Positions 3,395 through 19,283 of a stretch of 64,000 nucleotides of DNA are shown one piece after another. The notes under the pieces were generated by a model, which ran no database searches, was not told the DNA's origin, and was given only the letters and a program-made list of their open reading frames with translations. The number at the start of each line of letters is the position of its first letter. The first letter of the stretch is position 1. Where the stretch lies: the NCBI RefSeq assembly GCF_001905125.1, contig NZ_LWLE01000002.1:1-64000 (forward strand), in the 5' to 3' direction. A program made the position numbers and the translations under genes. Origin of the DNA: Streptomyces sp. TSRI0281 (GTDB lineage: Bacteria > Actinomycetota > Actinomycetes > Streptomycetales > Streptomycetaceae).

Positions 3395-4373
3395 TCACGC
3401 GGGTGTGGTGGGCAGATCGAGTGCCTGCGTGTGGTGGGTTGCTTGTTGGTCGGTCAGGAGTCCGGCGACGGTTCGGATGGTGTCGAGCAGGTTCTCTCGT
3501 CGGGTGTGGTGCCGGGCGCGGGCTCTCCAGTTCTTGAGGTGGGCGATGCCGTGCCCGACGGGATTCTGGCTGAGGAGTGGGCGAAGCGTGCGGCCTCGTG
3601 TTGTGCCATCAGCCATTGCAGGTGTTCGAGTTGTGCCATCAGTCCTTGCAGGTGTTCGAGGTATGTTTGCCGCGTCGTTTGCATGGTGGGGGATGACCTG
3701 GCCGCAGGTTTGCGCCGCGAGGCCCTGGCAGCCGACGTCGGCAAGGATCTGCAGGTCGATGGTGTCGGCGAGCAGGCCGGCGTCACGGGCGTGGTTGATG
3801 TCGGCGACGGATCCGGCCCGGACCTCGCCGCAGGACAGTGGTCGTCCGCGCTCATCGGTGACAACGAGGGCTTTCATGGCGTTGATGCGGCTCTTGCCGG
3901 AGATGAACCGGCTGCGTCCGCCGCGGTGTGGTCTGGACGGCGGACCCTGATCTCGGTGGCGTCCACCGAGGCGGTCCGGCCGGTGGCTCCGAGGCGGGTG
4001 ATGACATCGGCGAGTCCGCGAAGGCGCAGACTGCCTCGATGCGACAGCCGCGGTCGGCGAGCAGGGGACCGGATCTCACCGACCGACGGGTGATGGTCGA
4101 CCGGTCCGCCGGAAACCATCAGGCCAGTACGTCGTGGGTCACGCCGTGCCTCAGATGAACGAGTGTGGCCAGGAGCCGGGCGACGAAGACCAGCTTGTGC
4201 TTCGCGCCCGCTCCGACCGCTCGCCGACGTGGTCGGTCGAGCAGCCCGGCATCTCTGCGGGCCTGCCAGACCGGCCCCAACTCCGCCACCAGATCAGCGG
4301 TCACAGCCGCTGAAAGGCTCGTGATCCGACGCTCCGGCGTGATCAACCCAGGTGCCGCCTGCACCCCCACCAA
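3395..4373 (-). pseudogene. IS5-family transposase, degenerate
   Basis: The pieces run in order: an N-terminal part (ITSLSAAVTADLVAELGPVW, KLVFVARLLATLVHLRHGV), an in-frame stop near 4119, then PLLADRGCRIEAVCAFAD, a frame change to LADVITRLGATGRTASVDAT, and a second change to MKALVVTDERGRPLSCGE. The C-terminus (GIAHLKNWRARARH) stays open. The order matches the IS5-type DDE transposase with the VDATE and GYQGLG motifs, here GCQGLA. One stop plus two frame changes make it inactive. A local 30-bp tandem duplication at 3601-3660 adds further damage. Confidence 0.8.
3601..3660. repeat. 30-bp direct tandem duplication
   Basis: Two adjacent 30-bp units beginning TTGTGCCATCAG and ending GGTGTTCGAG differ at two positions. 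They lie inside the decayed transposase, in a part that no longer matches the family, and look like replication slippage. Confidence 0.9.
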
Positions 4374-4403: not shown

Positions 4404-6257
4404 TCACCGCTGACCACGCTTGAGCTCGTTTGTCTCCTCACGGGCGAAGAGGCAGGTCAGCGGTCCGCCGGCCCTGATCAGCTCGTCCCAGGTGCCCTCC
4501 TCGACGATGCGTCCGCCGTCCAGGACCGCGATGCGGTCTGCCCTGCGGACGGTGGCGGGGCGATGGGCGATCACCAGGGTCGTCCGGGTGGCGGAGTCGG
4601 CTGCGAGCGCCTCGGCCAGTTCCGCGTCACCCCGGTGATCCAGATGGGCCGTCGTCTCGTCCAGGACCAGTACGCGCGGGCTCCCCAGCAGCCCCCGGGC
4701 CAGGGCGACCCGGGCGCGCTGCCCCCCGGAGAGGGTCGCCCCGCGCTCGCCCACGGCGGTGTCCAGTCCGTGGGGCAGCGCGTCCGCGATGGGGTCGATG
4801 CCGCAGAGGCGGGTCACCGCGTCCAGTTCCTCCTGCGTCGCTTCCGAAGCGCCCAGACGGAGGTTCTCGGCGAGGGTGCCGTGGAAGAGCGGCGCCTCCT
4901 GCCCGACCACGCAGACGGCGGCCCGAAGGTCCACCTCGGTAAGGTCTCGCAGGTCCACGGGGTGCGCGGGGGACGGAGGAAGGAGTTCCACGGTTCCCTC
5001 CCGGGGGTCCCAGTAGCGCGCCAAGAGGTGCGCACAGGTCGTCTTGCCCGCCCCGGAGGCTCCGACCAGGGCCACGGTCTCGCCGGGCCGGACGATCAGG
5101 TCGAGGCCGTCCAGGACGGTGTCTCCGCCGTAGCCGAACCGTATGCCGCGCAGCCGAAGGCCCAGCGGGCCCGCCGGAACGGGGCGCGGATCGGCGGGTT
5201 CGGGAACTCCGGCCGGTGCGTGGACGGCGGCCCGGACCCGTGCCGCAGCGGCCCTCAGGCTGCCCGCCCGCCCGAGTGCGGCCGCCGATTCGGCGACCGG
5301 CGCCAGGGCGCCCAGTGCGAGGGCCATGGCAGCCGGGGCCCAGGCCCGGTCCAGGTGTCCGGCGGACGCGGCGTGGGCAGCCGCCGCGACGACCGCGATG
5401 ACGGCGGCGACGACCAGCAGGTCGCGGGCCGCGCCCGCACCGGTCTCCCAGGACTGTTCGGCGCGCTGAGCCCGTGCGAGTCGGCGTCCGGCGGTCCGGA
5501 GCCGGGCCCGTCTGCGGTTCAGGGCGCCCGCCATCAGGAGTTCGCGCAGTCCGTCGACGCATTCCACGGTCTCGGCGGAGACCTCGGCGAGCGCGGTCCG
5601 GGTGCGGGCTCCGCGCTCGGCGCGCCCGCGCGCTTCGAGCAGGGGCGACCAGATCAGCAGCAGAGCGGCGGGCAGGACGCCCAGCAGCAGCCACGGCCCG
5701 AGCGCCGCCAGCACAGTGGCCGACACGGCGAAGACCACTCCGGAGGCGAGAAGTTGGGCGATGGCGTGGGCGTAGAAGAACTCCAGCGCCTCAACGTCCC
5801 CGAGAGCGGTCGCTGCGAGGTCGCCGCTGCGCCGACCCGCGATCCGGGCGGGAGCGCTGCGGGCGAGTCCGTCGAAGACCCGGACGCGCAGTTCGGCGAG
5901 CACCCGGTAGGCAAGGTCGTGCGAGAGGTCCATCTCGCGCCAGGTGGCGAGGGCACGGAGCAGGACGAGCCCGACCAGGACGGCGACGGTCCAGGGCGCG
6001 GGCGGGCGGTGCTCGGTGACGGCCGTGCCGACCGTGTGCGCGGCGAGCGCGGCCAGGGCGACCAGGGCCGCTTGATCGACGAGCGCGGCCAGACAGGTGC
6101 GCAGCACGGTCGTGCGGTGCGCGCCGAGGACCGGGAGGAGCGAGCGCAGGGCGCCGGTTCCGCCATCGAAGACAGCTCCGGTTGGTGGGGCTGTGTCGGG
6201 GGCTTCGGCGGCTCCGGAGGACCCGTCCGGGGCGGGCCGGTGCGGGGGCGGTGTCAT
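4404..6257 (-). CDS. ABC exporter half-transporter (TMD-NBD), subunit 2
   Basis: This 617-residue protein has an N-terminal membrane domain (about six hydrophobic segments, residues ~45-320) and a C-terminal ATPase domain with Walker A GASGAGKT, signature LSGGQ, Walker B VLVLDETTAHLD and H-loop IAHR. It is the last gene of the azole-peptide operon. Its ATG overlaps the stop of the preceding exporter gene by 4 nt, so the two probably form a heterodimer. Expected role: ATP-driven export of the mature peptide or self-protection. Substrate assignment rests on operon context only. Confidence 0.9.
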   Translation of the reverse strand: MTPPPHRPAPDGSSGAAEAPDTAPPTGAVFDGGTGALRSLLPVLGAHRTTVLRTCLAALVDQAALVALAALAAHTVGTAVTEHRPPAPWTVAVLVGLVLLRALATWREMDLSHDLAYRVLAELRVRVFDGLARSAPARIAGRRSGDLAATALGDVEALEFFYAHAIAQLLASGVVFAVSATVLAALGPWLLLGVLPAALLLIWSPLLEARGRAERGARTRTALAEVSAETVECVDGLRELLMAGALNRRRARLRTAGRRLARAQRAEQSWETGAGAARDLLVVAAVIAVVAAAAHAASAGHLDRAWAPAAMALALGALAPVAESAAALGRAGSLRAAAARVRAAVHAPAGVPEPADPRPVPAGPLGLRLRGIRFGYGGDTVLDGLDLIVRPGETVALVGASGAGKTTCAHLLARYWDPREGTVELLPPSPAHPVDLRDLTEVDLRAAVCVVGQEAPLFHGTLAENLRLGASEATQEELDAVTRLCGIDPIADALPHGLDTAVGERGATLSGGQRARVALARGLLGSPRVLVLDETTAHLDHRGDAELAEALAADSATRTTLVIAHRPATVRRADRIAVLDGGRIVEEGTWDELIRAGGPLTCLFAREETNELKRGQR

Positions 6258-7993
6258 GCGGCGCGCTCCTCCCGTGCGGTGCGCCCGGCCGCGACGAGCG
6301 AGGCATACACGCCGCCGCCCGCGAGCAGGGACGTGTGGTCGCCGGCCGCGGCGACGCGGCCGGCGTCGAGCACGAGGATGTGGTCGGCGTGGCGTACGGC
6401 GTCGAGCCGGTGGGCCACGACGAGGCAGGTACGCCCTCGTCCGGCCCTCAGCAGTTCCCGTACGATGCGCGCCTCGCCGCGTTCGTCCACCGCGCTGGTG
6501 GCTTCGTCCAGGATCAGGACCGGCGAGTCGGCGAGCAACGCCCTTGCCAGGGCGAGACGTTGGCGCTGTCCGCCGGATAGCGTGGCGCCGCGTTCGCCGA
6601 CGAGGGTGGCGTAACCGTCCGGCATCCGGGCGATCTCCTGGTCGATGCCGGCCGCGCGGGCGGCGGCGTGCAGTTGCTCATCGGTGGCGGCGGGGCGGGC
6701 AATGCGCAGGTTTTCCGCGATCGTGGCGTGGAAGAGGTAGGTCTCCTGCGAGACGACGGCGATGCCCCGGCGCAACGAGGCGAGGGTGTACGCGGCGGTG
6801 TCGGTCCCGGCGACGGTGACGCGACCACTGTCCGGGTCGCGCTGTCGCAGCAGCAGGCTCAGCAGGGTCGACTTCCCGGCGCCGGAGGGTCCGACGACGG
6901 CTGTGGTACGCCCGGCGGCCGCGGTGAAGGATACGCCGTCAAGGGCGGGCCGTCCGGCCCCGGGGTGAGTGAAGCGCACGTCCTCGAAACAGATTTCGGG
7001 GGCGGCCTGCCAGGCGGCCCGCACGGCCCCATGATCCGGGACGGCGGCTTCGGCGGTGCGCAGGGCGGCGATGCCGTCGGCGGCGGACACTCCGAGGTAG
7101 CCCGCGTGCCACTCGCGGGAGAGATCGCGGATCGGGCGGAAGCACTCGGAGGCCAGCAGGAGCAGGACGTAGGTGCCCGTGGGGGCGGTGCGGCCGGTGG
7201 TGGCCGAGGAGCACGCCACGAGGACGGCGGCGACCGTGCCGCCCTGGACGGCCAGGTCGGTGAGGCCGGTATCGAGGAGCGAGACCCGGAGTTTGGCGAC
7301 GGTGGTCCGGTGCACGGCGGCCGAACGCCGCTCCAGCCGCTCCCGTACACGCCCCACAGCACCTGCCGCGCGCAGGGTCGGCATTCCCTGGAGGGCCTCC
7401 AGGTAGTCCGCGGCGAGGGCTTCATAGGAGTCCCAGTGCTCCTTGCCGCGCCTGTCGAGGAGACGGTTCCACCAGCGCGGTCCGAAGAGGGCGAGCAGCA
7501 GGGCGGGCCCGAGTACGAGGGCCGCGTACGGTTCGACGAGGGCGACGGCGGTGAGGAGGAGCGGCGGAATGGCGCAGGTGATGAGGAGTTGGGGCAGGTA
7601 GCGCGAGATGTACGCGTCGACGCCCTCGACGCCGTCCACCAGGGTGGCGCGCACGGCTCCGGCCCGTGTGCCGGTGATCGCGGTGGGGCCGAGCGAGCCG
7701 ACGCGTTCCAGCAGGGTGTCGCGGAGCCGGACCCGCACGGCGGCCCCTGCGGTGACGGCGATCAGGCGCTGGGCGCGGCCGAGGGCGGCGCGTACGAGGA
7801 CGACGGCGAGGACGGACGCGAGCGGCGGTAGGAGTTGGGCCGTCTCGCCGCGGGCGATCCGGGAGAGCACCACGGCCAGCAGGACGGCCTGGGTGAGATG
7901 GGTGGCGGTCACGGCCGCGAGCAGCGCGGTGGCACCGCCGAGCGGGCGGCGGGCGCCACGGGCGGCGTGCAGGAGTTCGGGGTGGAGCATCAT
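6254..7993 (-). CDS. ABC exporter half-transporter (TMD-NBD), subunit 1
   Basis: 579 residues, starting at the ATG of an ATGA overlap with the dehydrogenase gene, with a GAGGAAG-like ribosome site upstream. Transmembrane segments occupy roughly residues 20-290. The ATPase domain shows Walker A GPSGAGKS, signature LSGGQ, Walker B VLILDEATSAVDE and H-loop VAHR, so it should be a fully active nucleotide-binding domain. It is paired by translational coupling with the next half-transporter. CydD/CydC-type heterodimers have a similar layout, but the surrounding RiPP genes favour peptide export. Confidence 0.9.
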   Translation of the reverse strand: MMLHPELLHAARGARRPLGGATALLAAVTATHLTQAVLLAVVLSRIARGETAQLLPPLASVLAVVLVRAALGRAQRLIAVTAGAAVRVRLRDTLLERVGSLGPTAITGTRAGAVRATLVDGVEGVDAYISRYLPQLLITCAIPPLLLTAVALVEPYAALVLGPALLLALFGPRWWNRLLDRRGKEHWDSYEALAADYLEALQGMPTLRAAGAVGRVRERLERRSAAVHRTTVAKLRVSLLDTGLTDLAVQGGTVAAVLVACSSATTGRTAPTGTYVLLLLASECFRPIRDLSREWHAGYLGVSAADGIAALRTAEAAVPDHGAVRAAWQAAPEICFEDVRFTHPGAGRPALDGVSFTAAAGRTTAVVGPSGAGKSTLLSLLLRQRDPDSGRVTVAGTDTAAYTLASLRRGIAVVSQETYLFHATIAENLRIARPAATDEQLHAAARAAGIDQEIARMPDGYATLVGERGATLSGGQRQRLALARALLADSPVLILDEATSAVDERGEARIVRELLRAGRGRTCLVVAHRLDAVRHADHILVLDAGRVAAAGDHTSLLAGGGVYASLVAAGRTAREERAA

Positions 7994-9570
7994 GGGCGTT
8001 CTTCCTCGCCGGGCAGGGCCGTTGGTGCGGAGGGTGTGGCCGGTGGTGCCGGTGCCGTTCGTTCTGCCGGCTTTCGGCACATGGCGATGACGGCAGGTTT
8101 CGGGCCGCCCGGGGGTGCGGCTAGGGCCAGGCCGTGCACGATCCAGTTGTGGCGGGGGGTGTCGCCGAGCGCCGCGCCGAGGTCGGCCTGTTGCCAGGAG
8201 CCGATGGGTCGTGAGCCGAGTCCCAGCGCGGTGGCGTGGACGTGGGCGGCGCCGACCGCGTAACCGGCGGCGAGGTGACTGCTGCGGACGAGGGCGGGCG
8301 CGGCGTCCTCGGGGCAGCCGTGCGCGAGCAGCACCGCACCGGCGCTGCCCACCCACTGCTGGCACGCAGCCCACCGGGCCAGGGTGGGTCGCGCGTCGCC
8401 GACGGCGGCGATGTCAAGGTCCGTGCCGCTTACCGCCGTTGTGTACAGGGCCGGGGCGGTGCCGCCGACTGCGAGGGTCCACGCCGGTCCGTCCGGCCGG
8501 GCTGTCTGCGCGGTCGCCAGGATGCGGGCGAGCGCCTCCCGGTCAGGCGTCCGGGTCAGTGCATCGGGTGCGGCGCTCCGGCGACGGCGCAGGGTGTCAT
8601 CGGTCACTGCCTCGGGGCGCGTGACCGGGTGCCAGGTCCCACCGGGCCGGCAGGGTGCTGCGGTGAGGCGATCCAGCAGGTAGCGTGCTGCGGCGGATTC
8701 GCGCAGTGGGGGGCTTTCCGCTCCGGGCTGGGGGAGCGGGGCGGCGGCGGGGGGCAGAGCAGCCCAGGCGCTCAGCGCCGTTGCGCCGGGATCGTGGCGT
8801 GCGCCGGGTACGCGCGCTGGGGCTAACCGGACTGCCGCGAGCGGAAGTTCCGGCTCGGTGCCGGGCCAGGCGTCCTCCCACTCGGCGACCGGGGGAAGTC
8901 CTGCGGCGGCGGACAGCAGGGCCCCGTCCGCGTCGAGGGAGACCCGGGCGCCGGCCGGGGCCCCGGCCAGCGCCAGGGCGGCAGCAGCATGGCCCGCGTC
9001 CAGGAGGAGCAGCGGCCAGGCCCGGTGACCGTAGTGCGCGACGGTGCGGGCAGCCGCCACGGTAAGGACGGCGAGGGCGCCGGGTGGCGCGTCGCCGGGG
9101 GCCGGTCCCCGCCGGTGGGCGCGGTGGGTGCGCGGGTCGTAGGCGTACCGTCCGGGTGGCAGCGAGCAGCCCGCCCCGACCAGCAGGTGCGCGCGCACCG
9201 GGTGCAGGGCGCCGGCGGAGGGCACCGGGCGCAGCCGCCCCGGCGTACCGGCGGGCCCGGCCAGGGACAGCCGTAGCGTTCGGTCCAGGTCGATCGCCGC
9301 GCCGGGACCTGTCAGGGGAAGCGCCGGGCCGCCCCACGGGAGCGGGAGCTCGGGGACGTACGGGGAGAGGCCCGGTACGCGCACCGACCGGGCGTCTGCG
9401 AGAGCGTGACGCAGGGGGTCCGGTGCTGACTGCTCGGAGCCGGAGCCGGAGCCGGAGCGCGGCGAGGCGAGGGGAAGTACGGGACCGGAGGCGGGGGCGG
9501 GATCGAAGGCTCGGGCGGCGGGAGCCGCGCCGGAGATCGCCGGAGCGGGGGGCGCGGGACAGAGAGGCAT
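7990..9570 (-). CDS. SagB-type azoline dehydrogenase (thiazole/oxazole RiPP)
   Basis: 526 residues. The ATG at 9570 has AAGGAG nine bases upstream; a GTG at 9588 overlaps the previous stop but has no ribosome site. The protein carries two nitroreductase-like halves. The first has PSAGALHPVRAHLLV and the second has SSHLAAGYAVGAAHVHATALGLGSRP, the FMN-binding pattern of SagB/McbC-type oxidases. In linear azole peptides this enzyme oxidises azolines to aromatic azoles with FMN. It follows a YcaO gene, as in classic clusters. Duplicated-fold SagB-like proteins of ~500 aa are known in actinomycetes. Confidence 0.85.
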   Translation of the reverse strand: MPLCPAPPAPAISGAAPAARAFDPAPASGPVLPLASPRSGSGSGSEQSAPDPLRHALADARSVRVPGLSPYVPELPLPWGGPALPLTGPGAAIDLDRTLRLSLAGPAGTPGRLRPVPSAGALHPVRAHLLVGAGCSLPPGRYAYDPRTHRAHRRGPAPGDAPPGALAVLTVAAARTVAHYGHRAWPLLLLDAGHAAAALALAGAPAGARVSLDADGALLSAAAGLPPVAEWEDAWPGTEPELPLAAVRLAPARVPGARHDPGATALSAWAALPPAAAPLPQPGAESPPLRESAAARYLLDRLTAAPCRPGGTWHPVTRPEAVTDDTLRRRRSAAPDALTRTPDREALARILATAQTARPDGPAWTLAVGGTAPALYTTAVSGTDLDIAAVGDARPTLARWAACQQWVGSAGAVLLAHGCPEDAAPALVRSSHLAAGYAVGAAHVHATALGLGSRPIGSWQQADLGAALGDTPRHNWIVHGLALAAPPGGPKPAVIAMCRKPAERTAPAPPATPSAPTALPGEEERP

Positions 9571-9584
9571 GGCGGGGTGCTCCT

Positions 9585-10958
9585 TCACATGTGCGGCGGC
9601 GGAGCGAGGGTGAAGTCCTTTGCTTCGGAAGGCGGTTGACTCCGCCAGCCCCGGGCGAGCGCGGCATCGGCGAAGCGTGGGCAGCCGAAGTAGCCGAAGG
9701 CCGCCGGTGCGTTGGGAACCAGTCCGGAGACCAGCACGCGGGCAACGCGTAGCGTGGTCTCGGCAACGTCCTCCGTGGTGAGGTCCGCGGTGATCACCCG
9801 GTGCCCCCCGGCGGTGAGGGCGTCATCGAGCGCGGTGCGGCTGCCGGGGGCGATGCTGGTGATGGGTACGGTGCCCCGCGCGGGATCGGTGAAGCGGCGG
9901 GCGAGCGGCGTCATCCGCTCGTCGAGCCACACCTGTATGTGTGCGCCGAGGTCGCGCACGGCGGCGAACTCGGTTCCGCAGTCGTCGAGATACCGCCGGT
10001 CGGCCCGGTGGTCGAGGTACAGGCCCCGGGCGAGCATCCCGGCCTCCACCGCCCGGTACACCCAGCCGTCGGCGTCCACCGCGCCCTGGGTGAACACCCA
10101 GGTGTGCACCGCCTCCAGTACGGCCTTGCGGGCCGCCTCCGCCGGGTTGTACCGGCAGGCGAACCCGGCCGCGTGGATGCCGCGCGCGGGGTCGTGCACG
10201 AGGGCGGCCATGGAGGGGGCGAATTCGGAGGGCATCTCCACGATGTGCACCTCCAGGCCGCAGTCCGCCAGATCCTCGGTGAGGCCGGGGACGCTCGCCG
10301 GGGCGATGCCCCGGGTGGGCCCGTCGAGGTGCCACCACAACTCCAGGGCGTCGCGCTCGACGACTTCGAGGAGTCCGCGCTCGACGGCATCGTCGAAACC
10401 CTGTCCCGTGGCGATACCTGCGTAGTTGAGGTGATGGGTGCGGGGAAGTGAACGCAGTTCGCCCTGACGCCAGTTGAGGTGGGTCAGGGCGACGGGGGCC
10501 CAGCAGGACCGCCCGTTCTCGGTCCCCTCGGTCCACAGTGCCGGTGTGTCGGGGGTGAGTTCGGCATACGGGAAGCCGCGGCGGTCGTACTGCCAAGGGG
10601 CGTAGGTGGGCAGCGCGCCGGGTCCATAGACGCGGTGGCCCTCGGCGGCGAGTTCGGCGGCGGTGGCGCGCCGGGGCGCGCGGGGGTGGCCGCGCGGCGG
10701 GAGGCGGTTGCCGCAGTAGCGCTCGACGGCCTCGGCCACGGTGGCGATCCAGGCGCCGCCCGGGTCGCCGAAGGTGGTGCCCAGCGAGACCCGGTCGGCC
10801 GGCCAGGCGCCTAGGCGACGGGCGTCGGCCACGTCGGCGGTCATCGCGGTGTACCGGGGCGGCGCACCGGTGGGGTGTTCGACGGGCGCGACGTCGCGGA
10901 TGATCCCGCTGACGGGGTCGACGAGGGCTTCGATGGGCAGGACGCTGGTCAACGGCAT
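9585..10958 (-). CDS. YcaO-type cyclodehydratase
   Basis: 457 residues; the start near MPLTSVLPIEALVDP overlaps the hydrolase gene by 10 bp. YcaO ATP-site motifs are visible: AVAEAVERYCGNR near residue 90 and AVERGLLEVVERDALELWW near residue 205, followed by a late R-rich nucleotide segment. The C-terminus ends in a Pro-rich tail (LAPPPHM), as in azoline-forming YcaO proteins where the tail lines the active site. Role: ATP-dependent backbone cyclisation of Ser/Thr (or Cys) in the precursor to azolines, with the separate E1-like partner two genes upstream presenting the leader. Confidence 0.92.
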   Translation of the reverse strand: MPLTSVLPIEALVDPVSGIIRDVAPVEHPTGAPPRYTAMTADVADARRLGAWPADRVSLGTTFGDPGGAWIATVAEAVERYCGNRLPPRGHPRAPRRATAAELAAEGHRVYGPGALPTYAPWQYDRRGFPYAELTPDTPALWTEGTENGRSCWAPVALTHLNWRQGELRSLPRTHHLNYAGIATGQGFDDAVERGLLEVVERDALELWWHLDGPTRGIAPASVPGLTEDLADCGLEVHIVEMPSEFAPSMAALVHDPARGIHAAGFACRYNPAEAARKAVLEAVHTWVFTQGAVDADGWVYRAVEAGMLARGLYLDHRADRRYLDDCGTEFAAVRDLGAHIQVWLDERMTPLARRFTDPARGTVPITSIAPGSRTALDDALTAGGHRVITADLTTEDVAETTLRVARVLVSGLVPNAPAAFGYFGCPRFADAALARGWRSQPPSEAKDFTLAPPPHM

Positions 10959-12601
10959 ATCTCCGGTACGGGCTCGACGTAGCGGCGTCGGGCGATGACA
11001 GGCAGGAGGACGGAGCTGCCCTGGGCGGTCACGGTCCTGCGGGACGGGACGAGCCGGGTGGCCGTGACCGGGTCCTCGCCGGTGTGTGGGTTGCGGGCGT
11101 GGGCGGGGAAGTGGTGCCCGGCGATCTCGGCCCGTAGTCGGGTCCCGGCGGGCAGTCGACGGCCCAGCGTGCCGAGCGGCACGGTGACGTGCACGGCACT
11201 TCCGGGCGGGTCGGTGCGCCGGACGATGCCGAAGGCCAGCGGTTCCGCGCGGCCTGCCGGGTCGAGTGCGGTCAGGCGGACGGCCCAGTCGGCGGACGGC
11301 GCGTCGGCCGTGACGTTGATCCGGGCCTCGGCGGCTCCGGCCAGGTCGAGCGGGCGGGGCAACGGCGGCGAGAGGAGCAGGCAGCGGTCGGCGGGATCTC
11401 CGTCGGCCGGGACGGTGAGGTCGTCGGAGCGCACGGGGCGGGCCGGGTCGGCGGTGAACTCGGCTCCGTGGAGCAGTCGCAGACCGGTGGCCGTACCGAA
11501 GGCCCAGGCGGAGGCCCGGGGCCCATCCGGCTCCGGCTCCGGCACCGGCTCCGCGTCCGGGTGTGGGGTGTGAGCGGTTTCCGCGCACGGACCGCAGCAG
11601 CCTTCGTGCACGGGAAGACGGGCTGCTTTCCCGCCGGCGGCCCCGAACCCCGTCGGCTCCGGGGTACTGTGCCAGCGCCCGCTGTCGCCGAGGGCGATGG
11701 CCCCGCGCCGGTTCGGTTCCAGCCCGCCCGACAGAGCGGCGCGGGCCCACCGTACGTACAGCGCACCGAGGTTGACGCTCCTGCGGCCCGACGTGGTCGG
11801 GTCGGCGGTGAGGCGGTGCCCCCAGGGCCCCAGCAGCAGGCGGGCCGGGCCTCCCCAGCCGTGCCACAGGGCCACGGTGTCCTCGGCGAACGGGTCGTGG
11901 GCGCCCCCGACGGCGAGCAGCGGGAGCCGGGCGGTGGCGCCCCGCTCGACGATCTGGCCCCTTGTGCGGTCGGCCCACAGCCGGGACCAGGACGGCAGTT
12001 CGCGTCCCAGCCCCCCGGCGAGACGTTCCGCCAGGCGGGCAATCGGGAGGTGTTCCAGCACATGGGGGTCGTCCGCCAGGATGCGTTCCAGCGCGTCCGG
12101 GTCGGAGTCGGGGCGGTCGCCGTGGGCGGCCCACCAGCCGGCGCGGGCCCACAGCCGCTCGGGGCCGGCGTGCTCGCGTGCGGTATCGGCGAGGCCGAGG
12201 GCGGGGACGGCTGCGATGACGGCGTCGGGACGTCCGTCCTCGGTCGCGGCGAGGGCGGTGACGAGGGCGCAATGCGCGGCGTAGGACGCGCCCGAGGCGA
12301 CCACCTCGCCGCTGCTCCAGGCCTGTTCGCGCACCCAGGTCGCGGTCGCCAGGCCGTCTGTTTCCTCGTGCCCCTGGTACGGATGCCACTCCCCGGGCGA
12401 GCCGTGGCGACCGCGTACGTCCTGGGCGAGGGCGGCGAATCCGTGCGCCGCCCAGCCGCGCAGCTCGGCGCGGTGGGCGGTCCGCCCGTACGGGGTTCTG
12501 ATCATGACGGCGGGATGGGGGCCGGTCGTGTCCGGAAGGCATACGTCGGTGGCGAGGGGCGTGCCGTCCGGTGCGGGAACGTACGCGGTGCGGGTGTTCA
12601 C
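10949..12601 (-). CDS. CocE/NonD (peptidase S15-type) hydrolase
   Basis: 550 residues, starting at a GTG within a GTGA overlap with the upstream gene. The alpha/beta-hydrolase core carries the nucleophile motif SGASYAAHCAL, the acid in VGGAHDPFAEDT and the catalytic His in LLGPWGH. A C-terminal X-Pro dipeptidyl-peptidase-like jelly roll follows (GRRLPAGTRLRAEIAGHHFPAHARN). Family members cleave X-Pro peptides, cocaine esters or beta-lactam acids. Sitting between the two cyclodehydratase genes, it is likely a tailoring or leader-trimming enzyme for the RiPP; the precursor holds an N-P bond (VENPFDD) that an X-Pro enzyme could address. The target is inference. Confidence 0.88.
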   Translation of the reverse strand: MNTRTAYVPAPDGTPLATDVCLPDTTGPHPAVMIRTPYGRTAHRAELRGWAAHGFAALAQDVRGRHGSPGEWHPYQGHEETDGLATATWVREQAWSSGEVVASGASYAAHCALVTALAATEDGRPDAVIAAVPALGLADTAREHAGPERLWARAGWWAAHGDRPDSDPDALERILADDPHVLEHLPIARLAERLAGGLGRELPSWSRLWADRTRGQIVERGATARLPLLAVGGAHDPFAEDTVALWHGWGGPARLLLGPWGHRLTADPTTSGRRSVNLGALYVRWARAALSGGLEPNRRGAIALGDSGRWHSTPEPTGFGAAGGKAARLPVHEGCCGPCAETAHTPHPDAEPVPEPEPDGPRASAWAFGTATGLRLLHGAEFTADPARPVRSDDLTVPADGDPADRCLLLSPPLPRPLDLAGAAEARINVTADAPSADWAVRLTALDPAGRAEPLAFGIVRRTDPPGSAVHVTVPLGTLGRRLPAGTRLRAEIAGHHFPAHARNPHTGEDPVTATRLVPSRRTVTAQGSSVLLPVIARRRYVEPVPEICR

Positions 12602-13485
12602 GGGCGTGCCTTCGCGGTCCCGGTTTCCGCGGATGCCGGGACGGGTAGCGGGGCCACGTCCGGGACGGGGAGTACGGGGTGCTCGGTGACGCTGAGGTCG
12701 CGCAGGTCGATCCGCCGCATCCGACGGCGGGCGGGGAGGCCGCCCTCCCGGTGCGGCCCGGTTTCACCGCTCGCCCAGGCGATGAGGTCGGCGGTGAGCA
12801 GCGCGGCGATCAGTGCGGCGGAGGCTTCGGTGGGGTGGGGTCCGGTGTCGGGGGTGCGGTGTCCGGCCCAGTACGCGGCGAGTTCGCGGTGGGCGGCGGT
12901 GGCCGCGAGTCTGCGCAGGCGCACATGGCGGGAGGTGACGTCGTCGGGGGCCGCGGCGAGGGGCTCGATCCAGCTGTGGGCGCCCTCGCGGTGGCAGCGC
13001 AGCCAGCCCGTCCGACGGCCGGGCAGTCGGTCCGCCGTGTCCCACAGCCCTTCGGGGACGGGCGAGTCGAGGCACCAGACCACCGCCAGGCGGTCGTGGC
13101 CGGCGGGGTCCCGGGCGAGTTCGGCCACGCGGTCGGCGGTGGAGTGGTGAACCTCGGCCCCTTCCGCCGCAGCGCAGCGTGCCAGTGGTCGGGTCAGGAC
13201 GGGGTCACCCAGGACGTGGACCCTGCGTCCCGTGAGCGGGGCGCTGCGCGGGGTGGACAACGTGTGCCCCTCGGCCTCGAACGCGGCCACCAGCCGGTCG
13301 AGTGCGGCGGAGTTCGTGCCCTCGGACGGGACCGTCTCCCCTGCGGTCAGCCGGTCCACCAGGACCCCGCCGTCGACACCGCCCATGTCGATGCGCAGGA
13401 ACTCCCCGGCGGAGGTGCGGAGCACGGGCCCGGCACCGGGAACGGTGACGATCCCGGTGCCGGGAGCGAGTCGACTGCGGGTCAC
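12598..13485 (-). CDS. E1/ThiF-like leader-binding partner of the YcaO cyclodehydratase
   Basis: 295 residues. The GTG at 13485 has GGAGG five bases upstream; open frame further upstream has no start site and runs into the precursor region. The N-terminus (~1-85) fits a small beta/winged RRE-like domain, followed by a Rossmann-type core (VHVLGDPVLTRPLARCAAAEG) and the family-typical end RHVRLRRLAATAAHRELAAYW ... HPVLPVPDV. Such TOMM partners bind the precursor leader and activate YcaO. Unusual: the paired CxxC zinc cysteines found in many E1-like partners are absent; its three Cys are scattered. Confidence 0.8.
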   Translation of the reverse strand: MTRSRLAPGTGIVTVPGAGPVLRTSAGEFLRIDMGGVDGGVLVDRLTAGETVPSEGTNSAALDRLVAAFEAEGHTLSTPRSAPLTGRRVHVLGDPVLTRPLARCAAAEGAEVHHSTADRVAELARDPAGHDRLAVVWCLDSPVPEGLWDTADRLPGRRTGWLRCHREGAHSWIEPLAAAPDDVTSRHVRLRRLAATAAHRELAAYWAGHRTPDTGPHPTEASAALIAALLTADLIAWASGETGPHREGGLPARRRMRRIDLRDLSVTEHPVLPVPDVAPLPVPASAETGTAKARP

Positions 13486-13521
13486 GGGTACCTCCGGTGC
13501 GATGGCTGGGTGGCTGAACGG

Positions 13522-13558
13522 GACGGGCCCGCCCGGGAATTGACCGGGCGGGCCCGCC
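13522..13558 (-). terminator. strong hairpin between precursor and enzyme genes
   Basis: The inverted repeat 13522-13536 / 13544-13558 (15-bp arms, one position a G-U pair on the minus-strand RNA, 7-nt loop) lies after the precursor stop and before the enzyme operon. No U-tract follows. It likely acts as partial terminator or 3' stabiliser so that precursor mRNA exceeds enzyme mRNA. Confidence 0.75.
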
Positions 13559-13592
13559 GCGTGGGTGCGGGTACCCGCGTGAGCGGGTGTCC

Positions 13593-13727
13593 CTACTTCT
13601 CGTCCGCGGTGTCGGCCTCGACGGCGTCGTCGAAGGGGTTCTCGACGAGGGCGTTCGAGTGGGTGGCGGAGAGATGGGCGAGCTGGCCCTGGTCGGCGAT
13701 CGGGCTGAACACCTTGTTGTGCTCCAT
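13593..13727 (-). CDS. RiPP precursor peptide (44 aa), linear azole class
   Basis: The ATG at 13727 has GGAGG eight bases upstream; an in-frame ATG at 13742 sits at that ribosome site and is less likely. The peptide starts MEHNKVFSPIADQGQLA, continues HLSATHSNALVENPFDD and ends AVEADTADEK. It has no Cys. Ser20, Thr22 and Ser24 alternate in HLSATHSN with His18 and His23, so up to three oxazole-type rings next to imidazoles are possible. The C-terminus is strongly acidic (seven Asp/Glu in the last twelve residues). It lies just upstream of the modification genes, behind its own Zur-type operator. Which part is leader, core or follower is not settled. Confidence 0.8.
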   Translation of the reverse strand: MEHNKVFSPIADQGQLAHLSATHSNALVENPFDDAVEADTADEK

Positions 13728-13792
13728 GAGTGAAGCCTCCATTCGTATCGGATGGGTGTTGGGCGGCGTTGGTGCGTGCCGCAGCACAGACA

Positions 13793-14656
13793 CTAATGAA
13801 TATGATTTTCATTCCACAAGGGTTGGGGTGGATGAACAGGGTGATCTGGGTAACAGATGGGCCAGCCGCCCTCGCTGTCGATCCCCACCCGGCCCTCCAC
13901 ACCGAGGACTTCGGCCAGCAGACGCCGGGTGACGACCTCGCCGGGAGGCCCGTCGGCCGCGATCCGGCCCTCGCGCAGCGCGACGATCCGGTCGGCGAAC
14001 CGGGCCGCGTGGTTGAGGTCGTGCAGCACCATCACCACCGTCAGTCGACGCTCCGCGCGCAGCCGTACGACCGTCTGAAGCACGTCCAGTTGGTGCCGCA
14101 GATCGAGGTAGGTGGTCGGTTCGTCCAGGAAGAGAACGTGGGCGTCCTGGGCCAGCGCCATGGCCAGTCGCACCCGCTGTCTCTCTCCGCCGGACAGCGC
14201 GTCCACCGGCCGGTCCGCCCAGGCGGTGACGCCCACGTCCGCGAGCGCCCGGCACGTCACCGCATCGTCCCCCTCCCGCAGCATTCCGAGCGGTCCTCTG
14301 GTGGCGTAACGCCCTTGGCGCACCAACTGCCGTACGGTCAGGCCCGGTACGGCCGGTGCCGACTGATGCAGCAGCGCGGCCCGTCGGGCGGCGGTGCGAC
14401 GGGGCAGCCGCGAAGCGTCGTCGCCTTCGAGCAGCACGCGCCCACTGCTCGGGGTGAGCAGTCCGGCGGCGAGCTTGAGGAAGGTGCTCTTGCCGCAGCC
14501 GTTCAGCCCGATCAGGGCGACCAGTTCACCGGCACCGATGCGCAGGTCGACCCCGCGCAGCACCTCGCGTCCCGGGTAGCCGAAGCCGAGTCCCTCCGCC
14601 CGGACGACGTCCGGGCCGAGCCCTTCCGCCCGGACCGTGCCCGACTGTCCTGCCAT
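13793..14656 (-). CDS. FecE/FepC-type ABC transporter ATP-binding protein
   Basis: 287 residues from the ATG at 14656, which has GAGGAG six bases upstream. An ATG at 14755 forms an ATGA overlap with the permease stop and would add 33 residues, so that start remains possible. Motifs: Walker A GLNGCGKS, signature LSGGERQR, Walker B VLFLDEPTTYLD and H-loop VLHDLNHAARFADRI, all typical of the siderophore/cobalamin-type importer ATPase. It energises the two FecD-like permeases upstream. Its last codons double as the Zur operator for the precursor gene. Confidence 0.92.
   Translation of the reverse strand: MAGQSGTVRAEGLGPDVVRAEGLGFGYPGREVLRGVDLRIGAGELVALIGLNGCGKSTFLKLAAGLLTPSSGRVLLEGDDASRLPRRTAARRAALLHQSAPAVPGLTVRQLVRQGRYATRGPLGMLREGDDAVTCRALADVGVTAWADRPVDALSGGERQRVRLAMALAQDAHVLFLDEPTTYLDLRHQLDVLQTVVRLRAERRLTVVMVLHDLNHAARFADRIVALREGRIAADGPPGEVVTRRLLAEVLGVEGRVGIDSEGGWPICYPDHPVHPPQPLWNENHIH
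13795..13813. promoter_or_regulatory. Zur-type operator upstream of the precursor gene
   Basis: AATGAATATGATTTTCATT is a near-perfect inverted repeat around a central G. It closely fits the actinobacterial Zur pattern TGAAAAT-N-ATTTTCA and does not fit the iron (DmdR/IdeR) box. It overlaps the last codons and stop of fecE and ends 68 bp before the precursor ATG. Confidence 0.75.
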
Positions 14657-14751
14657 GCCTCTCTCCTCATCCATCGGCTCCTGTTTCGGCGTCGCACTCA
14701 CGCCTCGCCATGTCCGCACCCCTGTACGGCGCATGTCCGCCCCTGGCCAGG

Positions 14752-15801
14752 TCATCGCGGCTCCGCCTGTCGGCGGACCACGGCCAGCAGCAACCCCGCC
14801 CCCACGAAAGTGGTCAGTGCACCGACCGGCAGGGTCAGCCGGTCCGCCTCAAGTGCCGTGGCCAGCAGTCGGGACAGCAGTTGGGCGGCGGCATCCGCCC
14901 CGCACACCACCGCCGCGCCGAGCAGCGCGGCGCCCGGGAGTGTGATGCGCAGGTCCGCACCGAAGACAGCCAGCGCCAGATGCGGCACGAGCAGCCCCAC
15001 GAAACCGAGCGCCCCCACGGCCGAGACGGCGCCCGCCGTCAGCGCCACCGCACACACGAGCGCCGCCCCTCTGCCCCGGCCGGTGTCCAGACCGGCGGCG
15101 CCGGCCTGTTCGTCGCCGCAGCGCAGCAGGGTCAGCGGTCCGGCAAGCAGCCAGGCCGCACCGCCCCAGACCGCCGCCCACGGCCAGAGCAGGTTCCAGT
15201 GCTGCCAGACCCGCCCTTCGGTGGAACCGATCAACCACTGCACGACGCTGCCGAGTTCACCCGGGGCCACCAGCAGGACCACGGCGGTGATCCCGGCGAG
15301 CACGGCCGACACGAGGACCCCGTAGATGGCCGTCTGCTCCGGATCTCCCTTCTCGCGCCCAGCGAGCAGCCACAGCAGACCCGCTCCCGCGAAGCCTCCG
15401 AGGCAGGCCGCCACGACCACGGCCGTGGGCGAATCCCAGCCCGCCAGACCAAGGCCGGTGGCACCGACCGCGCCGAGCACCGCGCCCGGGGTGACACCGG
15501 TGACCTCGGGTCCGGCCAGCGGGTTGCGCAGGGCCGACTGGAGGACCAGCCCGGCCACGCCCAGACTGGCCCCGGCGGCCAGCGCCACCAGCAGGCGGGG
15601 CAACCGCAGTTGGAGCACGATGTGCTCCGTGACCGGGTCGCCGCCCCCGAGGAACACCGCCCGTACGCCTTCGGGGGTTACGCCCCGGCCGGCGAACAGA
15701 TCGGCGCAGGCGACCGCGGCGACGAGCACCGCCAGGCCGCCCATCCGGACTCCCGTCACGCGCGGGGCCCGGCGGGCCGGCCGGTCTTCTGGGGCGGTCA
15801 T
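14752..15801 (-). CDS. FecCD-family permease (second)
   Basis: 349 residues, starting at the ATG of an ATGA overlap. About nine to ten hydrophobic segments. Family hallmarks: LRLPRLLVALAAGASLGVAG, LQSALRNPLAGPEVTGVTPGA and GFVGLLVPHLA near the C-terminus, the cytoplasmic coupling region of BtuC/FecCD permeases. It pairs with the preceding permease as a heterodimer. The importer family moves metal-chelate complexes (siderophores, cobalamin, haem) as intact complexes, which fits uptake of a metal-loaded chelator under zinc control. Confidence 0.93.
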   Translation of the reverse strand: MTAPEDRPARRAPRVTGVRMGGLAVLVAAVACADLFAGRGVTPEGVRAVFLGGGDPVTEHIVLQLRLPRLLVALAAGASLGVAGLVLQSALRNPLAGPEVTGVTPGAVLGAVGATGLGLAGWDSPTAVVVAACLGGFAGAGLLWLLAGREKGDPEQTAIYGVLVSAVLAGITAVVLLVAPGELGSVVQWLIGSTEGRVWQHWNLLWPWAAVWGGAAWLLAGPLTLLRCGDEQAGAAGLDTGRGRGAALVCAVALTAGAVSAVGALGFVGLLVPHLALAVFGADLRITLPGAALLGAAVVCGADAAAQLLSRLLATALEADRLTLPVGALTTFVGAGLLLAVVRRQAEPR

Positions 15802-16856
15802 CGTTCCGCCTTCCGCAGGGTGAGGACATCCGACGGACTCCCCGGAACGGACACGGCCACAGGTTTCGATTGCGGGGCGGGCCGCCTCCTCCCGCGCTTG
15901 AGCAGCACCACCCCGACGGGCACACCGATCAGGGCTGTCCACGCACCAACGGGCGTCTCGACGGGGGCGAGCGCCAGGCGCGCCGGCTGATCGGCGCACA
16001 GCACGACGACCGCGCCGCACACGGCGGACCGTACGAGCCAGCCGGCGGCACCGCCGTCCGGGTGGAGGCGCCGGGCGAGGTGGGGCGCGAGGAAGCCGAC
16101 CCAGGCCACCGGCCCGCAGACCGCGACGACAGGGGCGATCAGGACGACGGCGATGCCCAGCGCGGCCAACCGCGCGCGTTCGACGCGTACGCCGAGCGCA
16201 CGGGCGTCGTCGTCGCCCAGCCGCAGGACACCGAGCACCGGCACGCACCACACGAGCGCCGGGACGCCCACGACGAGCCACGGCAGCAGACCGGTGACGT
16301 CGTCCCATGTACGGGCGGACAGACTGCCCAGCAGGTAGCGGTAGATGAGCTGGAGGTCGAGCTGGTCGGCCATGACCATGAGCATCAGCAGGCACGCCTG
16401 GAGAGCGGCGGCGACGGCGGCTCCGGTCAGCAGGACGGCCGAGGGACTACGCCCGAAACCGGCGGCGGCCAGGGTGAGCAGGCCGCCGACCGCCGCCCCG
16501 GCCAAGGCGAGGAACGGCTGCACCGCGAGGGGCACCGCCAGGGTCAGGACCAGTGGCGCCGCGACGCCCAAGGCCGCTCCGGACGAGACCCCGAGCATCT
16601 CCGGCACGGCCAGCGGATTACGCAGGGCCTCCTGGAGAACGAGGCCCGCGGCGCCCAGGCAGGCACCGGCGATCAGGGCCAGCGCCATCCGGGGCAGCCG
16701 CAGTTCGGAGACAACGAGACCGGCGAGGCCGTCGGCCCCCAGGGCGGACGGAAGCCGGCCGGGCGGGACGTACGGGGTACCGAGGCTGAGGGCGCACATC
16801 GCGCTCGCCACGGCTGCCGCCCCCAGGCAGAGGAGCGCTGCGGGCGGACGTCTCAC
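15798..16856 (-). CDS. FecCD-family permease (first)
   Basis: 352 residues from the GTG at 16856 (GTGA overlap with fecB). Hydrophobic throughout, with the family motifs LRLPRMALALIAGACLGAAG, LQEALRNPLAVPEMLGVSSG and VAWVGFLAPHLAR. It forms the membrane channel with the next permease. No independent ribosome site is evident, so translation probably depends on coupling to fecB. Confidence 0.93.
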   Translation of the reverse strand: MRRPPAALLCLGAAAVASAMCALSLGTPYVPPGRLPSALGADGLAGLVVSELRLPRMALALIAGACLGAAGLVLQEALRNPLAVPEMLGVSSGAALGVAAPLVLTLAVPLAVQPFLALAGAAVGGLLTLAAAGFGRSPSAVLLTGAAVAAALQACLLMLMVMADQLDLQLIYRYLLGSLSARTWDDVTGLLPWLVVGVPALVWCVPVLGVLRLGDDDARALGVRVERARLAALGIAVVLIAPVVAVCGPVAWVGFLAPHLARRLHPDGGAAGWLVRSAVCGAVVVLCADQPARLALAPVETPVGAWTALIGVPVGVVLLKRGRRRPAPQSKPVAVSVPGSPSDVLTLRKAER

Positions 16857-17839
16857 CGCAGTGCGGCCGTCGCCTCGTCGAGGACAAGGCCCAGGGAGCG
16901 GGTGCCGCGGCCCTTGGCCCATACCTCGGAGTCGACCTCGATGACCTTGCCGTTCCTCACGGCCGGAATCCGCGACCAGAGCGGGTTCTTGGCCAGCTTG
17001 TCGGAGAGCTTTCCGTCCGGCGCGCCGAAGGAGAGGGTCTCGACGAAAAGAACGTCGACGTCGCGGGCGAGGATCTCTTCCAGGCTGTACGCGCCGTCCA
17101 CGCCCCGGCTCCTCCAGGGGTAATGGGAGATCTTCGGGAGCATTCCGGCCGCCACATCGGTCTCCGGGGTGGCCACACCGAAGTTCTCGTCGCTGCCGAA
17201 GACGATGAGCGCGGTCTGGTCGCTCCTGTCCTGCTCCGCCCGTGACAGACGGGTACGGAACGCCTTCTCGGCCTTCTCCCCCTGCTCGGTGCGGCCTGTG
17301 AGCGCGGCCAGGTCCCGCAGGTAGCCGACGCTGTCCTGCCAGGATCCGGGCTGGACGGGCCAGAAGGCCGTGGCACCCTTCAGCGCGGGGGCGAGCTTGC
17401 CGTGAGTGTCCTCCAGGCCGATCACCAGGTCGGGCCGGTGGGAGAGGATCGCCTCGACCTCGGGGCTCAGGAAGCCGCCCGGCACGACCGGTATCTTCGC
17501 CGCCTTCTCCTTGCCGAGGAACTTCGGGTGCGCGAGCAGCCGGGAGTTGGTGGCGGCGGGCGTCAAGCCCAGCTCTACGAGGATGTCGTCGCAGAGGGCC
17601 ACGAGGCAGACGATCTTCTCCGGAGGCTTCGGCAGGGAGATCGTGACGCCCTTGGGGTCGGTGATCCGGGTGGCTGCCTCGATGGGCCGCACCTCGGTGC
17701 TCGTACGGGATCCGGCTCCGGCCGCAGGCTCGACGGCAGGGGATCCGGTGTCGGCCTTCTCGGTGCCGCAGCCGGCCAGCAGACCTCCCAGTACGGCGAT
17801 CGCGGCCCAGCGGCGGACTCTCAGCGCGGTTCGTGGCAT
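16853..17839 (-). CDS. FecB/FepB-type metal-complex-binding lipoprotein
   Basis: 328 residues. The ATG at 17839 has GAGGGA six bases upstream; a TTG directly before it is less likely. An N-terminal lipobox (GGLLAGCGT) makes it a surface lipoprotein. The rest is a class III solute-binding protein: PEKIVCLVALCDDILVELGL, a helical backbone, then DVDVLFVETLSF and KVIEVDSEVWAKGRG. It delivers the ligand to the two FecCD permeases. It is first in the operon behind the Zur-type box at 17937-17951. The ligand may be the exported azole peptide-zinc complex; this is inference from linkage. Confidence 0.93.
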   Translation of the reverse strand: MPRTALRVRRWAAIAVLGGLLAGCGTEKADTGSPAVEPAAGAGSRTSTEVRPIEAATRITDPKGVTISLPKPPEKIVCLVALCDDILVELGLTPAATNSRLLAHPKFLGKEKAAKIPVVPGGFLSPEVEAILSHRPDLVIGLEDTHGKLAPALKGATAFWPVQPGSWQDSVGYLRDLAALTGRTEQGEKAEKAFRTRLSRAEQDRSDQTALIVFGSDENFGVATPETDVAAGMLPKISHYPWRSRGVDGAYSLEEILARDVDVLFVETLSFGAPDGKLSDKLAKNPLWSRIPAVRNGKVIEVDSEVWAKGRGTRSLGLVLDEATAALR

Positions 17840-17936
17840 CAATGGTCCCTCATCATTTGCGTGCGGTCCCGGGGATGGAGCAGCGGCGACGGCGGAGCCC
17901 CGGGAGCGACCCCGCCACGGACCAAGAGCTTACACA

Positions 17937-17951
17937 TGATTATCATTACCA
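17937..17951. promoter_or_regulatory. Zur-type operator between fecB and the divergent beta-propeller gene
   Basis: Read on the minus strand, TGGTAATGATAATCA matches the Zur pattern TGATAATGATTATCA at 13 of 15 positions and includes a perfect ATGATTATCAT-type palindrome (17936-17946). It sits 98 bp from the fecB start and 68 bp from the divergent GTG, so it can control both directions. Confidence 0.75.
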
Positions 17952-18018: not shown

Positions 18019-19283
18019 GTGTCGCACGCGCCCCACCCGCCCCCTCGCCTCCTGGTCTCCGACCATGTCGCCGGGCGGATCAGCCTGTTGGACCTCCCGG
18101 ACGGCACGGAGCAGGCCGAGCTGAACCACCGGCACCTCTCCGAGCACGCGGGATTCCTGGCGCTGCCGGACGACCGGGTCGCCTGCGTGGACGACCGGGC
18201 GGGCGAGCTGCTGATCCTCGACCCCTACGGCCCGGACGCGGGGCGGCCGCTGATCCAGCGGCGCATACCGGTCGCCGTACCCGCCGAACACCTCGCGGCC
18301 GACCCGGAGGGGCGGCACCTCGCGGTGACCACCGGCCTCGGGCGCAACGAGGAGGCATGGACGGGACTCCTGACTGCCATCGACCTCGACGCACCGGACG
18401 GCGCCACGGCCGTACGCATACGGGGGAGGATCGGCGAGCCGGGCGTCACACTGCTCGGCGGACCGTCACCTCTCGTGGTGCTGCGCCATCGGGAACCGGG
18501 CGAACTGCTGGTTCACCGCCACCGCGACCTGATGAACTCGGCCCCCGCCTGTCCTCCGGCGGACCCGGTCCAGCGGATCGCCCTCCCCGACGACGACGGG
18601 CACGGCGATGCCCAGGACCCGCTCACCGGGAGGGTGCTCGCTGCCGCAAGTTCGGGGGTACACCGCGCGCGACGGGAGGGGGGCCACCTCATACCCGAAA
18701 GCCCTCTCTCCTGGTCCGCCGACGGGCGCTCAAGCGGGCGCGGCTACTACCTGCGGCTCGATCCCGCACGGCGAACGCTCTGGTCGTGCGTGCGCGGCGG
18801 CCCCGGCGACCCCGGACAGTGGCCGGACTGGACGAACGACGCATGGTGGCACCACCTCGACACCGGCGACACAGGCCGGCTGGACTTGGGCCCCGGACTG
18901 GTCTTCCGGCTCGCGGTGGCGCCCGCCACATCACGTACACCCGCGTCCACCCGGACGGCGACGAGTTGATCCTGCTGTCCGCACCCACAACCTCCCAAGC
19001 CCGCCCGCAAATCAGCGCCCGCCTCCCGCTGCCCGCAATGTCCGGCGCACCGCGCCGCGGAGGAACGCCGTGGGACGGCGTCCAGCGACGGGCGATCGCC
19101 GCCTCCCCCGGCGGCAGCCTGGTCGCGGTCAGCCGGGGAGGCCATGGGGAGATCCACGTCTTCGACGCCGACCGGGCGGCGCTCGTCACCACCCTCACCG
19201 TTGCGACCCCGCTCAACGACGGTGGCCACCTTGCACTGCTCACACCCGGCGATGGAGCCCACGCCGACCCGGTCGGACGGTGA
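18019..19283 (+). pseudogene. beta-propeller (AztD/YncE-like) protein, frameshifted
   Basis: The GTG at 18019 has AGGAG six bases upstream. The first ~305 codons encode repeated propeller blades (LLVSDHVAGRISLLDL, HLAADPEGRHLAVTTG, SGRGYYLRLDPARRTLW). Near 18925-18935 the sequence leaves frame, and the neighbouring frame carries ITYTRVHPDGDELILLSAP, IAASPGGSLVAVSRGG and IHVFDADRAALV to 19283, a natural continuation (~420 aa in all). It is either a real mutation or a base-call error in the C-rich stretch. The blade style and Zur linkage recall the zinc chaperone AztD, but no signal peptide is seen. Divergent from fecB and shares its operator. Confidence 0.7.

Follow-up and report, generated by a model that had tools for sequence, protein, structure and literature searches.

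The ami locus at positions 4404-17839 of a 64,000-nucleotide stretch of Streptomyces sp. TSRI0281 (contig NZ_LWLE01000002.1, positions 1 to 64,000; hereafter the window) carries Zur-type boxes before both its chelate-importer genes and its precursor peptide gene, and we consider it probable (roughly 0.6) that the locus works as a ribosomal zincophore system. Judged by its sequence, it is the known streptamidine (ami) cluster for a ribosomally synthesized and post-translationally modified peptide (RiPP) and not an unknown azole-peptide system; the zinc link is what is new in this analysis, the cluster itself having been known already.

The precursor MEHNKVFSPIADQGQLAHLSATHSNALVENPFDDAVEADTADEK passes the NF040714 'streptamidine family RiPP' model (E 1.1e-19, 70 bits, cut-off 40), and many of the 82 precursor homologues collected are named streptamidine family. 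As described in PMC8442711, the S. albidoflavus J1074 ami cluster has the same amiF1-F4, A, B, C, D, E, T1, T2 order and a divergent amiX, and shares with the window the precursor family and the core HLSATH; there is no essential difference in gene content, though amiX is frame-broken in the window. An earlier note made from this DNA had proposed a new azole-peptide class, a name rejected here because the precursor matches NF040714 and the isolated product is an amidine without azole (PMC8442711). Its further proposals, of Zur-type boxes at both fecB and the precursor and of a layout for dedicated export and re-uptake, are borne out by the results below.

Streptamidine itself consists of HLSATH bearing an amidine ring at its N-terminus, without azole, and clusters of its type were reported in more than 230 species (PMC8442711). 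The authors of that report weighed metal import and left the role of the product open, the word 'Zur' being absent from its main text. In the open-access literature, searched largely by title and abstract, no zinc link for the streptamidine family was found besides the negative zinc assay of the same report, nor did core peptide strings used as queries of that literature return a paper making such a link.

Zur-type boxes precede amiA and fecB

The Streptomyces Zur motif derived from chromatin immunoprecipitation (ChIP) is tGaNNatSatNNtCa (PMC5472717). Exact matches to it occur at three places in the 9.63-Mb genome, the amiA box among them, and matches with at most one mismatch at 152 places against 15 for a reversed control; given so many one-mismatch places, the fecB box is not telling alone and its conservation is.

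Conservation was assessed in a working set of 109 loci, made up of the best 80 of 365 relatives found by scanning named genomes (these 80 from Streptomyces and ten further named genera), loci from searches of the genus and the phylum, and the window. Twenty of these were left out of the box count, nine for lack of a recognised amiA and eleven as duplicates by upstream sequence; four remote YcaO matches without recognised precursor (L046, L048, L072, L073) were likewise not counted. In a 90-nt slice, the amiA boxes of the remaining 89 distinct loci matched 11 of 11 motif positions in 42 cases, 10 in 33, 9 in 11, 8 in two and 7 in one, so that 86/89 reached at least 9, compared with 57 of 9000 control windows from the same loci (6/9000 at 10 or more). 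The fecB boxes of 66 loci matched 11 positions in 17, 10 in 45 and 9 in four, all 66 thus reaching at least 9, compared with 191 of 9000 control windows of 250 nt (19/9000 at 10 or more). In S. albidoflavus (L155) the two boxes score 11/11 and 10/11. Outside Streptomyces 18 of 20 amiA boxes scored at least 9, the exceptions being L146 (8) and L070 (7), and the box before the precursor recurs across eleven genera.

The same box marks zinc genes in ami-bearing genomes

In eight non-Streptomyces genomes bearing ami loci, the pattern TGANAATSATTNTCA was present at 35 sites with at most one mismatch, against three for the reversed control. The distinct annotated box places among these sites numbered 15, comprising six at zinc or ribosomal genes, five at ami or fec genes and four without evident zinc role (L163, L164, L168, L172). 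Near the box were ZnuA in Cryobacterium (L160) and Nocardioides (L165), the zinc permease AztB with part of the zinc metallochaperone AztD in Arthrobacter (L171), a whole AztD in Paeniglutamicibacter (L162), a CobW-type GTPase and a Fur-family gene in Nocardiopsis (L166), and paralogues of L31, S14 and L32 together with a CobW-type GTPase in Austwickia (L167). A Paenarthrobacter genome (G585) has only two exact matches to TGANAATSATTNTCA, one preceding amiA and one the fec operon. In Cryobacterium the ami locus itself includes a ZigA/CobW-like gene preceded by a box, and an Arthrobacter ami locus includes Fur-family and ArsR/SmtB-family regulator genes. The boxes recurring across genera, the chelate importers found again in varied arrangements and the zinc genes with the same box all point to one metal, and this pattern of sites strongly indicates that Zur controls the ami family.

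A chelate importer accompanies the cluster

In Streptomyces loci fecBDDE lies directly upstream of amiA, with the exception of S. specialis (L034, L137), in which this set is lacking, amiX adjoins amiA and a different FecCDE set lies downstream, as in other genera; the cluster there looks rearranged or hybrid. Outside Streptomyces a FecCDE set was found beside ami in 20 of 22 loci (a count that includes L186-L188, which are without recognised precursor), on the other strand, downstream or upstream, and with 32-45% identity to the window genes. One exception (L069) ends at a contig edge and the other (L080) has no such set within reach. Identity and place point to separate recruitment of FecCDE in other genera. 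Remoter YcaO relatives had FecCD and FecE in 15 of 15 loci, contrary to the supposition that linkage of YcaO and FecCD might be absent in all relatives. FecCD genes occur at about eleven places in the 9.6 Mb of the window's genome, from which a random 20-kb stretch is estimated to hold one in about 2.5% of cases.

Own boxes were present at six of the nine loci with a downstream fec operon (L070, L082, L083, L084, L087, L088), and in one locus with upstream fec (L136) a box was found at a second substrate-binding/FecD/FecE set. The solved structures nearest to AmiF1 by sequence are siderophore- or iron-compound-binding proteins, which fits a chelate as cargo and not free zinc. A chelate-type importer linked to an exporter, as a zincophore system would have, is thus present among the window genes and in relatives.

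The conserved core extends beyond HLSATH

The conserved core of the precursors has eight residues, HxSA[ST]H[SC]N, and not six. H1, S3, H6 and N8 did not vary among the 94 core copies from the loci or among the 84 from the homologue set; the homologue sets were gathered by shared 5-residue words, a procedure biased towards conserved cores. Thr or Ser occupies position 5, and Ser position 7 except in three proteins with Cys. In a second precursor type (motif-B) the equivalent of position 7 is Thr in 98/98 repeats, followed by Asn in 97/98 and then by ALV; among the remoter relatives, three of eight motif-B loci have Thr followed by His instead of Asn. A position that varies among Ser, Cys and Thr and directly precedes a conserved follower resembles a site of YcaO cyclisation. 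Eight loci (L118, L123, L130, L131, L136, L139, L146, L151) have Nocardiopsis/Glycomyces-type precursors with two tandem cores.

An ion at m/z 414.69 was reported in PMC8442711. HLSATHSN less two waters and two hydrogens (38.03 Da, equal to one amidine or dehydration plus one azole) has a calculated m/z of 414.6910 as a 2+ ion. Of every sub-peptide that the S. albidoflavus precursor can yield, with at most three dehydrations allowed, HLSATHSN was the one solution, this uniqueness applying to protonated 2+ ions only and to a published mass of two decimals. For the window precursor, with protonated ions and as many as four dehydrations allowed, that 2+ solution was obtained again together with four 4+ ones. 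On this two-decimal mass, an azole may be present in a longer product, and streptamidine, we propose, is what remains of an azole-amidine zincophore after truncation. That HLSATH stops exactly before Ser7 would explain why it bound no zinc. Loss of an oxidised part from the longer product would account for the need for AmiE in making the unoxidised HLSATH, amiB and amiE both being essential in the published cluster; the options listed there include hydrolytic loss of an oxidised part (PMC8442711). The eight-residue core does not appear as a reading in the main-text parts of that report considered here.

Proposed function and alternatives

Under zinc starvation Zur would release both promoters, and AmiB would present the precursor to the YcaO protein AmiD. 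Ser7 of HLSATHSN would be cyclised and then oxidised by AmiE, giving an oxazole beside His6; AmiC would free His1, whose amine would close the amidine ring, and the follower would be cut before the conserved ALV. The resulting eight-residue product would offer two imidazoles, the oxazole nitrogen and the C-terminal Asn, and after export would bind zinc and be re-imported by AmiF1-4. The published HLSATH would be this product cut immediately before the azole.

A number of observations weigh against such a function. None of seven metal ions, zinc included, was bound by streptamidine in liquid chromatography-mass spectrometry assays, and a YcaO mutant behaved as wild type under metal starvation (PMC8442711), although redundancy with ZnuABC would account for the latter result. 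The ion at m/z 414.69 was seen in some heterologous cultures only and never in S. albidoflavus (PMC8442711), may be assigned otherwise in the supplement of that report, and has 18 further matches when sodium or potassium adducts and acetylation are allowed. The loci are related by descent, with 69 of 89 from Streptomyces, and are not 89 independent tests, for which reason recurrence in eleven genera outweighs the raw count. In the 11 loci with an upstream, other-strand fec operon, no box stood out at that operon. Boxes at motif-B loci are weaker, three of eight matching a looser consensus at 9 of its 10 positions and lying at a fixed distance (control 60/6000 windows, some overlapping the sites themselves), and a rule that zinc boxes occur only with histidine-bearing precursors was accordingly not clean. 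Finally, two loci (L079, in which amiA was not recognised, and L095) are without a dehydrogenase gene beside amiD; L095 keeps Ser7, and a strict link of AmiE to Ser7 was therefore rejected.

The zincophore role is nevertheless the most economical reading. The published assay that speaks against it may have been done with a clipped product: the eight-residue core offers a concrete reason for the negative metal assays, in that the tested molecule may have lost its ligand. The full form of this proposal is tentative and in our estimate falls a little short of even odds, namely that streptamidine is a clipped fragment of the first ribosomal zincophore, amidine-HLSATH-oxazole-Asn, which would be Zur-controlled in many actinobacteria; once exported it would take up zinc and re-enter through FecBCDE, AmiX acting as a zinc-handling partner similar to AztD. 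If correct, zinc would join copper as a metal served by ribosomal metallophores, and a widespread peptide family would have a role open to testing.

Conceivable, though unlikely in our judgement, is that the cluster is Zur-regulated and HLSATH is its true end product, a zinc-starvation signal or competition factor that AmiF1-4 import as such. HLSATH is the major product in S. albidoflavus, and the lack of metal binding and of a starvation phenotype would agree with this role; the absence of antibacterial or antifungal activity would not, nor would the need for AmiE to make a peptide that is not oxidised (PMC8442711). The chelate type of the importer, nearest to siderophore- or iron-compound-binding proteins, argues in the same direction, as does strict conservation that runs on through Ser7-Asn8 and the follower.

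It is very improbable that the box belongs to another Fur-family regulator and that the product handles iron, cobalt or copper. Fur-family boxes resemble one another, FecBCDE relatives mostly carry ferric chelates and motif-B cores are without histidine in most copies, all of which would suit another metal. However, in the ami-bearing genomes searched the box also stands before znuA, azt, cobW and genes for alternative ribosomal proteins, which are the standard Zur targets, and a DmdR-type iron box, tried as a candidate, was rejected since ami loci scored no better than control windows. Binding of iron, cobalt or copper was likewise not seen in the assays of PMC8442711. The slightest chance of all attaches to boxes and synteny being inherited passengers, kept by fecE codons or the amiX promoter in a cluster unused in zinc starvation: the Streptomyces amiA box does overlap the fecE end, amiX does share the box-bearing intergenic region and the S. 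albidoflavus mutant was without phenotype (PMC8442711), but other genera have the divergent amiX and not fecE upstream of amiA, and six of nine downstream fec operons have boxes of their own.

Gene content of the locus

Open reading frame (ORF) and profile analysis of the window identified eleven intact genes at 4404-17839, all on the minus strand, in the order fecB, fecD, fecD, fecE, precursor, E1/RRE-like, S15/CocE hydrolase, YcaO, SagB-type dehydrogenase and two ABC exporter halves (Table 1). This single minus-strand set, described in the earlier note, held on re-analysis in coordinates and order, and the gene order was found again in relatives, indicating that the arrangement is not due to chance. 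The statement that nearly all junctions overlap by 4 nt applies to seven of ten with the start codons chosen, and fails for amiC/amiD, which overlap by 10 nt, and for two gaps, of 65 nt between fecE and amiA and 107 nt between amiA and amiB. Profile searches agreed with the proposed families for the two FecCD permeases (PF01032, E-values 4e-69 and 2e-65), the S15 hydrolase and Pfam YcaO (9e-38, above cut-off); AmiD scored 1.4e-56 and 192 bits with TIGR03604, slightly under the cut-off of 219, and the RRE-type and SagB assignments lay below cut-off. A Pfam scan gave no match for amiB or amiE. AmiC is likely the leader peptidase.

Table 1. Genes, core peptide and Zur-type boxes of the ami locus (window positions)
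Feature	Position	Strand	Basis or remark
amiT2, ABC exporter half, CydC-like	4404..6257	-	profile match
amiT1, ABC exporter half, CydD-like	6254..7993	-	profile match
amiE, SagB-type dehydrogenase, AHYG motif	7990..9588	-	TIGR03605 1.2e-12, below cut-off; ATG start possible at 9570
amiD, YcaO cyclodehydratase, C-terminus APPPHM	9585..10958	-	TIGR03604, PF02624
amiC, CocE/S15 hydrolase	10949..12601	-	TIGR00976 and PF02129, 1.4e-50
amiB, E1/RRE-like partner of YcaO	12598..13485	-	TIGR03882 8e-4, below cut-off
amiA, streptamidine-family precursor, 44 aa	13593..13727	-	NF040714
proposed full core HLSATHSN	13653..13676	-	directly before ALV follower; published HLSATH is its first six residues
amiF4, FecE-type ATPase	13793..14755	-	profile matches; start uncertain, 14755 to 14656
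Zur-type box TGAAAATCATATTCA	13797-13811	.	11/11 motif positions; 70 nt 5' of amiA start, overlaps fecE end
amiF3, FecCD permease	14752..15801	-	PF01032
amiF2, FecCD permease	15798..16856	-	PF01032
amiF1, FecB-type chelate-binding lipoprotein	16853..17839	-	PF01497, Peripla_BP_2, 5e-20
Zur-type box TGGTAATGATAATCA	17937-17951	.	10/11 motif positions; between amiX and fecB, 98 nt 5' of fecB ATG
amiX, divergent beta-propeller gene	18019..19283	+	broken frame: one frame stops at 18969, another runs to 19283

Just 3' of amiT2, a short ORF at 4119-4373 (minus strand) appears by eye to be a transposase remnant. A cold-shock-domain protein encoded at 20454-20861 (minus strand) has, by eye, an apparent N-terminal export signal, unusual for the cold-shock family. 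Rfam and tRNA scans of the window gave no matches.

AmiX and further loci

The amiX gene lies in one frame in many relatives. The structure of an AmiX relative resembles AztD; membership of AmiX in the AztD family by sequence was rejected, since the curated AztD model NF038015 matched neither the window AmiX piece nor the AmiX of L136 and a profile comparison gave a probability of 1.7. In L136, the one locus scanned for this feature, a prolyl-oligopeptidase (S9) gene at 4708-6453 (minus strand) lies beside amiX, and ORFs of similar size are present in like position in L113 and L081; this S9 gene could be a second processing protease.

YcaO matches at 1e-40 were found in 28 of 199 genomes of the genus, namely the window's own genome, 24 at 75-91% identity near full length, a partial one at 76% (G027) and two remote ones (34-37%); at 1e-30, five of 396 genomes in a phylum-wide sample had a match. 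One 3.5-Mb genome has three ami copies (L069, L070, L071), two of them on one contig, and L070 is without recognisable amiA box. A third precursor type of 31 aa, ...VHSSNHAT...WR, occurs near an E1-like gene in L182-L185, loci from genomes of one family; it matches no NCBIfam family and adjoins two YcaO genes, an S15-type gene and FecCDE. A Zur-type box precedes it at 10/11 positions in L183 and L184 and at 9/11 in L185, and L182 has none.

Comparison with known systems

Methanobactin, a ribosomal peptide proposed to be an extracellular copper carrier with its own importer, resembles ami in outline. Unlike ami, it depends on DUF692-type enzymes (MbnB), has other heterocycles and handles copper; no DUF692-type domain was present in the ten window proteins scanned. 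The cluster comprising SCO7676 and SCO7681/7682 is presumably that of coelibactin. This zincophore cluster is among the Zur ChIP targets (PMC5472717), and Zur sites are therefore a feature that coelibactin-type zincophores share with ami, whereas coelibactin is a putative non-ribosomal peptide (PMC3430247) and the ami product is ribosomal. Compared with linear azol(in)e-containing peptides, isolated streptamidine has no azole (PMC8442711), and the ion at m/z 414.69 fits, at two decimals, one azole and one dehydration. Klebsazolicin and bottromycin share with streptamidine a YcaO-made amidine ring, and klebsazolicin blocks the ribosome exit tunnel (PMC8442711); for neither does that report mention a FecBCDE importer or zinc control, a difference from ami.

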